Made by a program: the position numbers and the translations under genes. The notes under the pieces were generated by a model, which was given only the letters and a program-made list of their open reading frames with translations, had not been told where the DNA came from and did not search any database. Positions 5,881 through 11,092 of a DNA stretch of 11,268 nucleotides are shown one piece after another; positions within the stretch are counted from its first letter, which is position 1, and the number at the start of each line of letters is the position of its first letter. Origin of the DNA: Chloroflexota bacterium. Lineage in GTDB: Bacteria > Desulfobacterota > Desulfuromonadia > Desulfuromonadales > Geopsychrobacteraceae. The stretch covers positions 1-11,268 of the forward strand of contig JADFVC010000164.1 of NCBI GenBank assembly GCA_015222355.1, read 5' to 3'.

Positions 5881-5902
5881 AGACCGCTTGCCGGCACGGT
5901 CT
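5881..5902 (+). other. Second 3' hairpin in the dehydrogenase-panB gap
   Basis: AGACCG (5881-5886) and CGGTCT (5897-5902) form a perfect 6-bp stem with a 10-base loop. The 11-mer TCTGCAACTGA occurs at 5815-5825 before the first hairpin and again at 5900-5910 overlapping this one, so the two hairpins are partly bracketed by a short direct repeat. Function is unknown. From 5911 to about 5960 I see only AT-rich sequence. Confidence 0.35.
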
Positions 5903-5965
5903 GCAACTGAGCACAAAACAGCAGAAATATACCGTTGTTTTTCATGAAAAAACCACAAAAGCAAC

Positions 5966-5994
5966 TGGACAAGTCAAAGACCCTTGTGATATAT
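5966..5994 (+). promoter_or_regulatory. Candidate promoter for the pan operon
   Basis: TGGACA (5966-5971) and ATATAT (5989-5994) are separated by 17 bases. The predicted start, around 6000-6002, would give a leader of about 220 nt ahead of panB, enough to contain the whole structured region. The -10 match is only moderate, so the start point is tentative. Confidence 0.4.
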
Positions 5995-6028
5995 CGTAAA
6001 CGCTTTTTTAAAGTGGCTGAATTACTTT

Positions 6029-6135
6029 AGTACCCAGAAAAAGAATGGATGGCTTGGGACTCGAAGCGGAGTCGGTAGCCTGTTAATTTTTTTGTACACC
6101 GCCTGAATCTGGATAGCCGCGACGGAAGGTGATAA
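6029..6135 (+). promoter_or_regulatory. Candidate tandem pan RNA (structured leader of the pan operon)
   Basis: Two related units lie in the panB leader. In unit 1, AGT (6029-6031) pairs with ACT (6059-6061) and CCCA (6033-6036) pairs with TGGG (6055-6058), leaving A6032 bulged. In unit 2, TTGT (6092-6095) pairs with ATAA (6132-6135, one G-T wobble) and CACC (6097-6100) pairs with GGTG (6128-6131), leaving A6096 bulged. Both start GTAC and both carry a GAAT...GGAT..GC segment in the loop (6043-6053 and 6105-6117). The pan RNA family is known for short stems with conserved bulged A residues, frequent tandem occurrence, and a place upstream of pantothenate genes in Firmicutes, Chloroflexi and deltaproteobacteria. 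The match rests on position, tandem layout and bulged A; I could not score it against the covariance model. Its ligand, if any, has not been established as far as I know. Confidence 0.65.
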
Positions 6136-6178
6136 GCCTATGGTTGGAGGATCCCTCTGGCTGGTCAGTGCCTTTCGT
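6122..6178 (+). promoter_or_regulatory. Candidate antiterminator pairing in the panB leader
   Basis: The segment ACGGAAGGTG (6122-6131) can pair along all 10 bases, with three G-T wobbles, with TGCCTTTCGT (6169-6178), the 5' arm of the terminator. It imitates the terminator's own 3' arm, with which it shares ACGGAAGG (6122-6129 and 6184-6191). Its last four bases, GGTG, are also the 3' arm of structured unit 2. Folding of unit 2 would therefore free the terminator, and unfolding would permit read-through into panB. Confidence 0.55.
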
Positions 6179-6198
6179 TCTCTACGGAAGGCATTTTT
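6167..6198 (+). terminator. Intrinsic terminator (attenuator) just upstream of panB
   Basis: A 10-bp stem with one G-T wobble (6169-6178 with 6184-6193) is closed by the loop TCTCT. It can be extended by two weaker pairs (6167-6168 with 6194-6195). It runs into TTTTT (6194-6198). It ends 23 nt before the panB start and lies downstream of the candidate promoter, so it can only work as a conditional attenuator on the pan operon. Confidence 0.75.
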
Positions 6199-6221
6199 AG
6201 TTTAACTATAGGAAAATACTT

Positions 6222-7025
6222 GTGAAAAGCAGGAAGACAATTCTTGATGTCGGCGCTATGAAAGAGCAGGGGGAGAAGATCACGGTCCTGACGGCTTATG
6301 ATTATCCCTTCGCCCAATTGATGGATGCTGCCGGAATCGACATAATTCTGGTGGGAGATTCGGTTGGTTCGGTTTTTTCCGGTTACGACAATACCCTGCC
6401 GGTGACTCTCGAAGAGATGATTTATCATACCCGCGCTGTGGTACGCGGCAGTCAACTCGCGTTGATAGTCACCGATATGCCGTTCATGTCCTACCAGGTC
6501 GATGCTCGTGATGCCCGGCTGAATGCCGGACGCCTGGTCAAGGAAGGGGGGGCGCATGCGGTCAAGCTTGAGGGTGGCGAGCATGTTGCGGAAACCATTC
6601 GTACCATCGTTGATATCGATATCCCGGTGGTTGGGCATATCGGGTTGACTCCCCAGTCGATCCACCGCATGGGTGGTTTTCGCGTGCAGGGCCGTCAGGA
6701 AGAACAGGCGCGCAAAATCCTTGCTGATGCCAAGGCCGTGGAAGAAGCCGGGGCTTTTGCCATGGTTCTTGAAGGGATCCCTCGCGATCTGGCCCGTCAG
6801 GTGACCGAATCGGTCAGTATCCCGACGATCGGGATCGGTGCCGGAGCGGAATGTGACGGTCAGGTCTTGGTGATTCACGATATCCTCGGACTTTGTGATA
6901 AATATTCACCCAAATTTGTGAAATGTTATGCGGATATTTCCGGAACAATTTCAGAAGGGATCAGCAACTATATCAAGGAAGTCAAGGCCGGTGAGTTTCC
7001 GACCCTTGACCATTCGTTTAAATAA
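6222..7025 (+). CDS. panB: 3-methyl-2-oxobutanoate hydroxymethyltransferase PanB
   Basis: It makes ketopantoate from 2-oxoisovalerate and 5,10-methylenetetrahydrofolate, the first committed step to pantothenate. The 267 aa fit the family. Visible motifs are LTAYDYPFA (23-31), VGDSVG with the metal-binding D46, TDMPF with D85, VKLEGG with E117, VVGHIGLTPQSIHRMGGF (136-153), the catalytic-glutamate motif VLEGIP with E184, and IPTIGIGAG (200-208). By analogy with E. coli PanB, D46, D85 and E117 coordinate Mg2+ and E184 is catalytic. The start is GTG at 6222, preceded by AGGA (6210-6213) at 8 nt, giving MKSRKTILDV as expected. It is the first gene of the operon and lies 23 nt after the attenuator; panC follows after only 5 nt. 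Confidence 0.97.
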   Translation: MKSRKTILDVGAMKEQGEKITVLTAYDYPFAQLMDAAGIDIILVGDSVGSVFSGYDNTLPVTLEEMIYHTRAVVRGSQLALIVTDMPFMSYQVDARDARLNAGRLVKEGGAHAVKLEGGEHVAETIRTIVDIDIPVVGHIGLTPQSIHRMGGFRVQGRQEEQARKILADAKAVEEAGAFAMVLEGIPRDLARQVTESVSIPTIGIGAGAECDGQVLVIHDILGLCDKYSPKFVKCYADISGTISEGISNYIKEVKAGEFPTLDHSFK

Positions 7026-7030
7026 CGATC

Positions 7031-7885
7031 ATGGATATCATTACTTCAGTTAAGGACATGCAACAACGTTCCTCGGCTGCGCGTGCTGCGGGACAACGGC
7101 TCTCGTTTGTCCCGACCATGGGATCTCTCCATCAGGGACATCTGTCCTTACTGGAAGAGGGGCGTAAGCGGGGTGACCTGCTGGTTCTTTCGATTTTTGT
7201 CAATCCGACCCAGTTTGGCCAGGGAGAGGATTTTGCGGATTACCCGCGCGCCCTGCAGCGTGACAGTGAGCTTGCTGCATCGGTCGGTGTCGATATCATT
7301 TTTGCGCCAACGGCCGCCGACATGTACCCCCAGGGCTACGCCACCTATGTCGATGTTGACGGCATTACCGAAAACCTCTGTGGTGCCAGCCGTCCCGGAC
7401 ACTTCCGTGGAGTGACCACGGTGGTGAGCAAGCTGTTCAATATTGTTCAGCCGGATCTGGCCTTTTTCGGTAACAAGGATTTTCAACAGCTGGCAGTTAT
7501 CCGGCGGATGACGTTGGATCTGAATCTGCCTGTCGAGATTGTCGGTCTGCCTATTTTCCGTGAAGCCGATGGCTTGGCGATGAGTTCGCGCAACATTTAT
7601 CTGACGGACGATCAAAGACAACAGGCTTTGGTGTTGTCGCAGTCGATTGCCGAGGCAAAACGTTTGGTGGTTGCCGGGGTGTCTGACTGCGAAACCATCA
7701 TCTCTCAGGTAACAGAGATGATCAGCAGTCAAGCTGAGGCCCGGATCGACTATGTTCAGATCTGCCATCGATTGAGTCTGGAAGAGCAAAAACAGGTTGA
7801 TAACGATTCGGTGATATTGTTGGCCGTTCTTGTTGGTAAGACCCGGCTGATCGATAATAGTTTTCTGCTGACGGTTTGCGATTAG
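7031..7885 (+). CDS. panC: Pantothenate synthetase (pantoate-beta-alanine ligase) PanC
   Basis: It condenses pantoate and beta-alanine into pantothenate through a pantoyl-adenylate intermediate. The 284-aa length is usual. Motifs: FVPTMGSLHQGHLSL (26-40) with the HxGH nucleotide-binding signature H34-H37, NPTQF (58-62), GHFRGVTTVV (123-132), GNKDFQQL (147-154), READGLAMSSRN (177-188) with the KMSKS-equivalent MSSR, and GKTRLIDN (269-276). The position before KD in GNKDFQQ is N, where many proteobacterial homologues have E (GEKDFQQ). ATG 7031 begins 5 nt after the panB stop with no convincing ribosome-binding site, so translation is probably coupled to panB. Its co-substrate beta-alanine is likely made by the next gene. 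Confidence 0.97.
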   Translation: MDIITSVKDMQQRSSAARAAGQRLSFVPTMGSLHQGHLSLLEEGRKRGDLLVLSIFVNPTQFGQGEDFADYPRALQRDSELAASVGVDIIFAPTAADMYPQGYATYVDVDGITENLCGASRPGHFRGVTTVVSKLFNIVQPDLAFFGNKDFQQLAVIRRMTLDLNLPVEIVGLPIFREADGLAMSSRNIYLTDDQRQQALVLSQSIAEAKRLVVAGVSDCETIISQVTEMISSQAEARIDYVQICHRLSLEEQKQVDNDSVILLAVLVGKTRLIDNSFLLTVCD

Positions 7886-7917
7886 CGAATTCAGCATTCG
7901 CTCTCACGGTGATATTT

Positions 7918-9579
7918 ATGACGAAAAAAGAAATGGCCCAGGCTAATCTGGAAAATCTTTATCGGATCTTTACCGTACCTGAAGCTCCCGACTCGACGTT
8001 GGGACGGGTTGATCAGGCCATTTCCGATAATGTAACGGGGTTTCTGCAGAAGCATATTGTTGCCCTGGAGCGGAACCTGGAGGAGATTGAGGGGGATTTT
8101 GCCGATTCGCGGATCCCCGAAGAGCCGACCTTCGTTTCAGAATACACCGAGTTTGTCAAAGAGAAGCTGGTGGCACAATCAGTTCACACGGCCGCCCCCG
8201 GATTTGTCGGTCATATGACCTCGGCACTGCCCTATTTCATGTTGCCCCTGTCACGGATTATGACGGCTCTTAACCAGAACCTGGTTAAAGTGGAAACATC
8301 CAAGGCGTTCACACCGATGGAGCGCCAGGTTCTGGCTATGCTGCACAGGTTAATCTATGACTGTGATGACGATTTTTATCCCCGCTGGATTCATGACAGC
8401 GGACATGCCCTGGGAGCTTTCTGCTCAGGCGGAACAATAGCCAACGCCACGGCTCTCTGGGTTGCACGTAACCGGCTGTGTGGAGCGGACGGTGATTTTC
8501 GGGGAATTACCCAAGAAGGCCTATTCAAGGCCATGCAACACCTGAATTGTGAAGGTTTGGCAGTCCTTGTCTCGCAGCGCGCGCATTATTCTTTGGCCAA
8601 AGCAGTTGATCTGCTGGGGATTGGTCGCGACAATCTGGTGTTGCTTGATACCGATGACAATAATCGCCTCGATATGCAGCATTTACGGGAACAATATGGG
8701 CGTTTGCAAGACCGCAACATCCGGCCGCTGGCAATTGTCGGTATCGCCGGAACTACGGAAACAGGCAATGTCGATCCGTTAGCCGAGATCGCTGAATTTG
8801 CTGCTGAGCGACAGTGTCACTTCCACGTCGATGCTGCATGGGGCGGTCCTACCCTTTTTTCGGATAAATACCGTCATTTGCTCAGTGGGATTGAACTCGC
8901 GGATTCTGTGACAATTGATGCTCATAAACAGCTCTACGTACCAATGGGAGCGGGGATGGTGTTGTTCAAAGACCCGACCGCGCTTTCTGCCATTGAGCAT
9001 CATGCTGCTTATATCCTCCGTCACGGTTCCAAAGATCTCGGCAGCCATACCTTGGAAGGATCGCGCCCCGGCCAGTCGATGCTGGTGCATGCAGGCCTTT
9101 CTATTATCGGTCGCAAGGGGTATGAATTGCTGATTGACATGGGCGTTGAACGGGCGAAGCAGTTTGCCCGAATGGTTAATGAGCATCCCAATTTCGAGTT
9201 GATGTCCGAACCGGAGCTGAATATCCTCACCTACCGATTTAACCCTGAATGGCTTCAGTCATGCCAGGGGAGGATGTCAACAGAGATGCTCGGGCAAGTG
9301 AACGAACTGCTCGATCAGATTACCCGGTTGGTGCAGAAATCGCAGCGGGAGGCGGGGAAGACCTTTGTTTCCCGGACCCGGCTCAGATCAGAAAAATATG
9401 CCGGCGAGTTGATCAACGTGTTTCGCGTGGTCTTGGCGAATCCACTGACGACCGAAGAGATTTTAAGCGGTGTCCTCGAGGAGCAATGTGCTATCGTGTG
9501 TGAGAATGAGGTGCGTCCCTTGCTCGCACGATTAAAAGAAATGGTCGCGTTGCTGGATTGTGAGCAGGCGGCTTGCTGA
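7918..9579 (+). CDS. panP: Pyridoxal-phosphate-dependent aspartate 1-decarboxylase PanP
   Basis: It is a group II PLP decarboxylase (glutamate decarboxylase fold) of the PanP type, which turns aspartate into beta-alanine for PanC and replaces the unrelated pyruvoyl enzyme PanD. Features in the 553-aa product: SALPYFMLPLSRIMTALNQN near 102-121, CSGGTIAN (169-176) for phosphate binding, H223 in RAHYSL as the ring-stacking histidine, HVDAAWGG (303-310) with D305 for the pyridine nitrogen, and the Schiff-base lysine K337 in DAHKQLYVP. The sequence agrees along its length with what I recall of the family described as putative pyridoxal-dependent aspartate 1-decarboxylase, whose Geobacter members cluster with panB and panC. 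ATG 7918 is preferred (GGTGA at 7908-7912, 32 nt after panC); the frame also opens at TTG 7876, within panC. Substrate choice (aspartate rather than glutamate) is inferred from context and family. Confidence 0.9.
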   Translation: MTKKEMAQANLENLYRIFTVPEAPDSTLGRVDQAISDNVTGFLQKHIVALERNLEEIEGDFADSRIPEEPTFVSEYTEFVKEKLVAQSVHTAAPGFVGHMTSALPYFMLPLSRIMTALNQNLVKVETSKAFTPMERQVLAMLHRLIYDCDDDFYPRWIHDSGHALGAFCSGGTIANATALWVARNRLCGADGDFRGITQEGLFKAMQHLNCEGLAVLVSQRAHYSLAKAVDLLGIGRDNLVLLDTDDNNRLDMQHLREQYGRLQDRNIRPLAIVGIAGTTETGNVDPLAEIAEFAAERQCHFHVDAAWGGPTLFSDKYRHLLSGIELADSVTIDAHKQLYVPMGAGMVLFKDPTALSAIEHHAAYILRHGSKDLGSHTLEGSRPGQSMLVHAGLSIIGRKGYELLIDMGVERAKQFARMVNEHPNFELMSEPELNILTYRFNPEWLQSCQGRMSTEMLGQVNELLDQITRLVQKSQREAGKTFVSRTRLRSEKYAGELINVFRVVLANPLTTEEILSGVLEEQCAIVCENEVRPLLARLKEMVALLDCEQAAC

Positions 9580-10741: not shown

Positions 10742-11092
10742 GGGGGTGTCAAGGTTTCGACGGGGGACGGAAACGAAGTGCCGCATGCCGGAGTGGGCTG
10801 GCTCCGTAACAAGCCCAACTTAACTAAACGCAGATACTGACGTTAGTTACGCACTAGCAGCCTAAGGCTGTTACGTCTTGTCACTCATTGCCTGTGTGGC
10901 TGATGAGACGTTAATTCAGCAGGCTAGTTTCAGCGAGTGTCTGTGGCGCCGAAACGAAATTAAAGCAGACTCGCCTGGTGGATATCCTGTCTGTGGGAGC
11001 TTCATCCGGTTAACTCAATACACAGACTATGCATGTAGAAGCCTTACGTGGAAAGCTTTCGGACGCGGGTTCGATTCCCGCCACCTCCACCA
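10742..11092 (+). ncRNA. ssrA: Transfer-messenger RNA (tmRNA, ssrA), one-piece
   Basis: This RNA is charged with alanine, enters stalled ribosomes with SmpB and adds a degradation tag to the unfinished protein. The 5' GGGGGTG (10742-10748) pairs with CACCTCC (11082-11088, one G-T wobble) to form the acceptor stem, followed by an encoded ACCA end. The T-arm is GCGGG/CCCGC (11065-11069, 11077-11081) around TTCGATT. The usual tmRNA 5' signature GGTTTCGACGGGGG is at 10753-10766. Pseudoknot 1 is seen as CGGAG/CTCCG (10789-10793, 10802-10806) crossing GGGCT/AGCCC (10795-10799, 10812-10816). The tag frame runs 10830-10865. The length, 351 nt, is normal for a one-piece tmRNA. Confidence 0.97.
10830..10865 (+). 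CDS. tmRNA-encoded proteolysis tag ADTDVSYALAA
   Basis: The resume codon GCA (10830-10832) begins a reading frame of 11 codons ending at TAA (10863-10865), giving ADTDVSYALAA. With the non-encoded alanine from the charged tmRNA the added tag is A-ADTDVSYALAA. The terminal ALAA is the degron recognised by ClpXP/ClpAP-type proteases. The stop codon sits in the 3-base loop of a hairpin, CAGCC/GGCTG (10858-10862, 10866-10870), as in other tmRNAs. Confidence 0.92.
   Translation, partial: ADTDVSYALAA

Follow-up and report, generated by a model that had tools for sequence, protein, structure and literature searches.

The leader of a panB-panC-panP operon in a draft genome of the Desulfuromonadales raises the question of whether it carries a working tandem pan RNA, as an original prediction from the letters held, or what is left of one. 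The window, that is, the whole stretch of 11,268 nucleotides that was analysed, belongs to a draft genome that is 82% complete. Its gene order is rsmA/ksgA, NAD-glutamate dehydrogenase, panB, panC, panP, an RseC/MucC-type protein, smpB and tmRNA, and the leader under study lies within the 410-base spacer between the glutamate dehydrogenase gene and panB. The leader elements and the three pan genes described here are on the forward strand. The tmRNA gene at 10742–11092 follows closely behind smpB, an ordinary pairing.

The predicted operon downstream is borne out by protein family matches. The genes directly 3′ of the leader, in the position typical of pan RNAs, are panB (6222–7025, GTG start), encoding ketopantoate hydroxymethyltransferase (TIGR00222, E 6.9e-108); panC (7031–7885), encoding pantoate--beta-alanine ligase (TIGR00018, E 8.3e-100); and panP (7876–9579), encoding pyridoxal-dependent aspartate 1-decarboxylase (TIGR03799, E 2.3e-269), whose coordinates are those of the open frame as listed, the real start being perhaps further in. 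A candidate promoter may lie at 5966–5995, judging from its letters (TGGACA ... TGTGATATAT, then CGTAAACGC). A block of this region, TGTGATATATCGTAAACGC, is also present in three related genomes (G002, G008 and G003), and a sigma-70 scan did not flag 5966–5995.

The pan element in related leaders

The pan RNA motif (Rfam RF01749; Weinberg et al. 2010, PMC2864571) is made up in most cases of two hairpins in tandem (PMC2864571). In the available passages of the mainly open-access literature searched, including PMC2864571, PMC4342826 and PMC5670726, no ligand or protein partner of the RNA is named. RF01749 matches at E ≤ 0.001 occurred in 22 of 60 genomes, the window's own included, and 13 of the 60 exceeded the Rfam gathering cut-off of 36.2 bits. 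In 21 of the 22 matched genomes the match lay directly upstream of panB; the 22nd match, in G016, is near a contig end, and panB of that genome is on another contig.

A wider comparison was made with panB leaders as such. The gene was found in 89 of the 98 genomes searched (own included), and 86 leaders were used, those of G016 and G020 (both with panB close to the end of a contig) and G095 (not fetched) being left out. A pan-type second hairpin, or unit 2, is present in 76 of the 86, and two pan units were seen in most relatives examined, at a spacing that varies widely (88 in G009). From the Rfam alignment to four relatives, the structure of unit 2 reads CCGCCUGG(A)UC....GACCGGG(A)CGG, and both bulged As are kept in all 76 leaders. 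The set of 76 was picked by fuzzy match to the consensus and is the one relied on for counts; an earlier "canonical" count of 71/86 used a pattern with the conserved letters built in, which makes its invariance figures circular in part. The ten leaders without unit 2 are those of G046, G080, G074, G053, G076, G037, G057, G047, G038 and G058 (leader handles L044, L086, L089, L091, L092, L093, L094, L100, L101 and L103; one of the ten, the G076 leader L092, is partly masked), so the element seems to be lost or absent in other branches too.

The 73 pan leaders other than those of the window and its two nearest relatives supplied 69 distinct sequences, from which the alignment and model were made. 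In these 69 the ten-pair stem of unit 2 is formed in 99.4% of cells, and versions of the stem slid by 1–3 columns fall far below the true register. Five pairs have changed on both sides and none of 500 shuffles reached any of five measures, figures to be read with the caveat that kinship alone can beat shuffles without structure and that in three of the five covarying pairs the change on both sides comes from a single sequence, G005 (L033). In unit 2 of G005 (L033:1365–1402) the fifth pair has changed from C-G to U-A and the upper stem is longer. With this paired change G005 keeps all ten pairs, whereas the changes in the window are uncompensated.

Broken pan units in the window and its near-copies

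The window is best read together with two near relatives, the Desulfuromonadaceae MAGs CSMAG_312 (G002; leader L109) and GLR9 (G008; leader L108), a more distant one being the MAG SZUA-375 (G003; leader L111), filed as Malonomonas rubra. The window genome, G002 and G008, referred to as the trio, are three closely related draft genomes (completeness values of 82, 84 and 93%), about 94–96% identical across the leader region, with 94% identity between the window and G002 over 3.4 kb. They form a single clade (support 100/99) grouped with pan-bearing members of the genus and family, and since the trio sits among pan-bearing relatives, the broken stems described below are taken as the derived state.

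An Rfam scan of the window at the gathering cut-off gave no pan match, and a search of the kind proposed with the original prediction gave none in 5900–6300 even at E ≤ 10. The only RF01749 match in the window's own genome scores 14.5 bits and is on another contig. A lineage model, R1, whose calibration is rough and whose building sequences include six members of the genus and not G002, scored those six at 41–51 bits (partly by construction), G002 at 27.1 bits (E 1.1e-5) and G008 at 19.6 bits. The window itself scored 13.6 bits (E 0.09 over 50,539 bases), with a partial match at 6115–6130. Given the identity of about 94–96% to G002 and G008, the homology of the window rests on the trio alignment and not on its own score; common descent with the pan leaders follows from its 94% identity to G002, which does score with R1.

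The register of unit 2 was taken from the Rfam pan model on relatives and from G002 with R1, and it places a degenerate unit at 6099–6125. The two canonical bulge positions there, A6107 and A6122, are both still A. Three of the ten pairs are non-pairs in the window: C6103xC6120, A6106xC6117 and C6109xA6115. The first two are common to G002 and G008, so that three separate draft assemblies agree. Two to three of the ten pairs are broken in the trio only; 69 of the 76 leaders have none broken and four have one. Forcing the unit 2 helix gave energies of +3.3 (window), −1.3 (G002) and −0.4 kcal/mol (G008), and of −8.6 kcal/mol or better in the other 73 of the 76 leaders. In equilibrium folds of the leader before the terminator is made, the canonical helix has a probability of 0.0 throughout the trio; across the 76 leaders the next lowest value is 0.20 and the median 0.98.

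Unit 1 is in a similar state. Its remnant, GGCTTGGGACTCGAAGCGGAGTC, lies at 6051–6073, where the CCGG/CCGG core of relatives is weakened to UUGG/GCGG. For the canonical helix, the window gives +0.1 kcal/mol and G002 −0.7. Of the 72 leaders scored (four of the 76, including G008, were unscored), the remaining 70 reach −4.8 kcal/mol or better. At that energy of the unit 1 remnant, the tandem hairpins of a pan RNA are not found in the window, and because the stems fail it is not filed as one.

The leader is classed as a decayed or altered descendant of a pan RNA, at a true pan locus. It resembles pan RNA (RF01749) in its gene position, its orthology to pan leaders, its remnants of two units and its retention of both bulge As of unit 2. 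It differs in that the window leader has no Rfam match and in the breakage of 2–3 of ten unit 2 pairs and of the unit 1 core; a further difference, seen in G008, is a 162-nt insertion between the units. The original prediction is supported as to the locus, where relatives carry RF01749, most of those examined with two units, and where a terminator follows in the window; its description as a clean example, for which Rfam gives no match, is not supported.

The insertion in G008 (L108:831–992) has inverted ends of about 20 bases, as judged by eye, and sits immediately 3′ of the unit 1 remnant, where it interrupts the leader between the counterparts of window positions 6074 and 6076. Matches to it number 17 in G000, 18 in G002, 24 in G008 and 3 in G007, some of them being the inverted ends of one copy, and none were found in G003 or G004. 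These counts mark it as a MITE-like family. As the insertion separates the units and leaves the unit 1 remnant uncut, it is weak evidence for decay; relatives in any case differ widely in how far apart the two units stand.

A conserved terminator and a candidate antiterminator

The second half of the leader is in quite different condition. The readable terminator of the original prediction is present as an intrinsic terminator at 6167–6195, ahead of the first gene, with a stem of 12 pairs followed by a T-rich tail, and none of its 29 sites varies in the trio. Between it and unit 2 is a spacer region predicted to fold into a hairpin (6131–6166), with 1 of 36 sites variable. A terminator-like site was located downstream of unit 2 in all 76 leaders, the finder having apparently chosen the wrong hairpin in a few (G015, G040 and G086, by eye).

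Variation within the trio is correspondingly uneven. Unit 1 and the linker (6030–6097) vary at 11 of 64 sites, much like the upstream spacer (21 of 149; p 0.54), and unit 2 (6098–6130) varies at two of 33, namely 6115 and 6116. The spacer hairpin and terminator together (6131–6195) vary at only one of 65 sites (Fisher p 0.0032 against the spacer and 0.0021 against unit 1 plus linker). A boundary at 6117 gives 1/79 and p 0.0015 and was chosen after the variable sites had been seen, so 6131–6195 is the fairer figure. Such a pattern would be expected if the sensor had been freed from constraint and the terminator half had not, three close genomes supplying few events.

Riboswitches and protein-binding leaders that attenuate transcription form a general class with a terminator and an antiterminator. 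The window is like this class in having an intrinsic terminator and an upstream strand that is complementary to the terminator 5′ arm and overlaps the sensor helix; it is unlike it in that its sensing helix is unstable and switching is here presumed. The candidate antiterminator strand, ACGGAAGGT, lies at 6122–6130, and in most leaders the terminator 5′ arm is complementary to the strand that starts at the second bulge A (ACGGAAGG). The duplex has an energy of −12.0 kcal/mol in each trio member. In 34 of the 76 leaders no other 13-mer pairs as well as this strand, whose median rank is in the top 1%; better-pairing 13-mers occur elsewhere in the leader of the window (−13.6) and of G008 (−12.6).

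Matched strands and arms paired no better than mismatched ones (means −11.93 and −11.84; 2876 of 10000 permutations as good). Per-pair covariation was likewise at chance level, its three observed values being reached by 471, 714 and 1324 of 2000 shuffles, with an anchor that missed the site in a few leaders. Since these pairing tests add nothing beyond sequence conservation, the attenuation mechanism is one that we continue to infer. Folding of the full leader favours the terminator in the trio, with a probability of 0.93–0.96 (median of the 76 leaders, 0.89), a result of equilibrium folds that does not settle the co-transcriptional outcome. The antiterminator strand overlaps the pan helix, so the two would be mutually exclusive, and this exclusion would make a switch in which a held helix turns the operon off and an open helix turns it on.

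A probable loss of the sensor, and other readings

At a probability of roughly 0.7, we consider that the sensor of this pan leader has already disappeared or is disappearing, with the terminator half kept. The ancestor of the panB-panC-panP leader would have been a tandem pan RNA coupled to a transcription attenuator. In related leaders AAGGY follows directly on the 3′ strand of unit 2 (ACGG), and the stretch so formed can pair with the terminator 5′ arm. Where a metabolite or protein held the pan helix, the terminator would be left free and the operon off; where the helix was open, the antiterminator would form and the operon would be on. The trio ancestor would then have lost conserved pairs in both pan hairpins without compensation, which argues that sensing is probably gone or going. 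Several points count against this reading: both canonical bulge As persist in all three trio members, an alternative hairpin can form in the unit 2 region, the antiterminator pairing covaries no more than shuffles do, the trio consists of closely related drafts, and three of the covarying unit 2 pairs depend on G005.

The alternative hairpin leads to another reading, in which the leader is a remodelled, working pan derivative whose unit 2 has refolded, with part of the antiterminator strand still hidden and with altered or new recognition. The hairpin concerned pairs CGCCU with AGGUG around UCUGG/CCG(C)GA. Four minimum-energy folds, one of the whole window leader and one of each short trio piece, all contain its inner helix (6108–6112/6117–6122). 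Three of them (the window leader and the G002 and G008 pieces) contain the complete hairpin, whereas the outer part of the short window piece is paired differently. The variable sites 6115 and 6116 would fall in the loop of the hairpin, and the constraint on 6131–6195 would suit a working leader. The presence of the inner helix in all four folds and the position of the insertion behind unit 1 shift the odds slightly from decay toward this variant. Nonetheless, the hairpin is no more stable than shuffled sequence (z −0.53, −0.01 and 0.11), unit 1 is broken, and three near-identical sequences display no covariation, so that we regard remodelling as unlikely.

Less probable again is that RNA sensing has given way entirely to another form of control, for example by a translated leader peptide or by a protein, which works through the retained terminator. 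A terminator half that varies little beside a sensor half that varies like spacer would agree with this, and a 13-codon frame can be read from ATG 6045 in the window. The ATG is absent at the same place in G002 and G008 (alignment, by eye), though, and no regulator was identified. A shared leader peptide was rejected by eye on reading the aligned leaders.

The stems of the original prediction lie in another register. It had read two segments beginning with GTAC, each forming a stem with a single bulged A (A6032 and A6096) and carrying a GAAT..GGAT..GC core. The letters are indeed there, GTAC at 6030–6033 and 6094–6097 and the longer strings at 6043–6053 and 6105–6117. Both stems can be drawn, as AGU(A)CCCA/UGGGACU (6029–6036/6055–6061) and UUGU(A)CACC/GGUGAUAA (6092–6100/6128–6135), but they are at the level of chance: of 1000 dinucleotide shuffles of 6029–6135, 816 contained a bulged-A stem of seven or more pairs and 555 contained two or more such stems. 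Nor are they conserved: the GTACCC of stem 1 is missing at this position from all six other panB-bearing members of the genus, and at least seven of the eight pairs of stem 2 are kept in four of 76 leaders, of which the window, G002 and G008 make up three. When 6020–6221 is folded to minimum energy, the first GTAC pairs with the second, so neither stem forms in that fold. With stems that are chance-level and unkept, and with A6096 variable within the trio, the observation is real as letters and weightless as structure, which leaves it confirmed in part and the interpretation built on it supported in part. A functional tandem pair exactly as drawn is hardly credible: the stems are drawable and the locus is a pan locus, but the bulged As of the Rfam register are A6107 and A6122, Rfam gives no match, and the drawn stems fare as just described. 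The case is a warning against naming pan RNAs by eye from bulged-A stems.

For the family, the order-wide alignment defines the two pan units, their conserved bases and the terminator behind them, and the broken-stem clade, standing beside intact pan leaders of the same genus, offers ready pairs of loss-of-function and intact leaders for reporter and binding tests. It is possible, if rather doubtful, that the trio amounts to a natural knock-out of pan sensing, with an ancestor that no longer had, or no longer needed, the pan-binding factor; both hairpins would then have decayed, and the terminator would serve as a fixed or otherwise controlled attenuator. If that were true, comparing which genes the trio and its pan-bearing sister species possess could point to the pan-binding factor.
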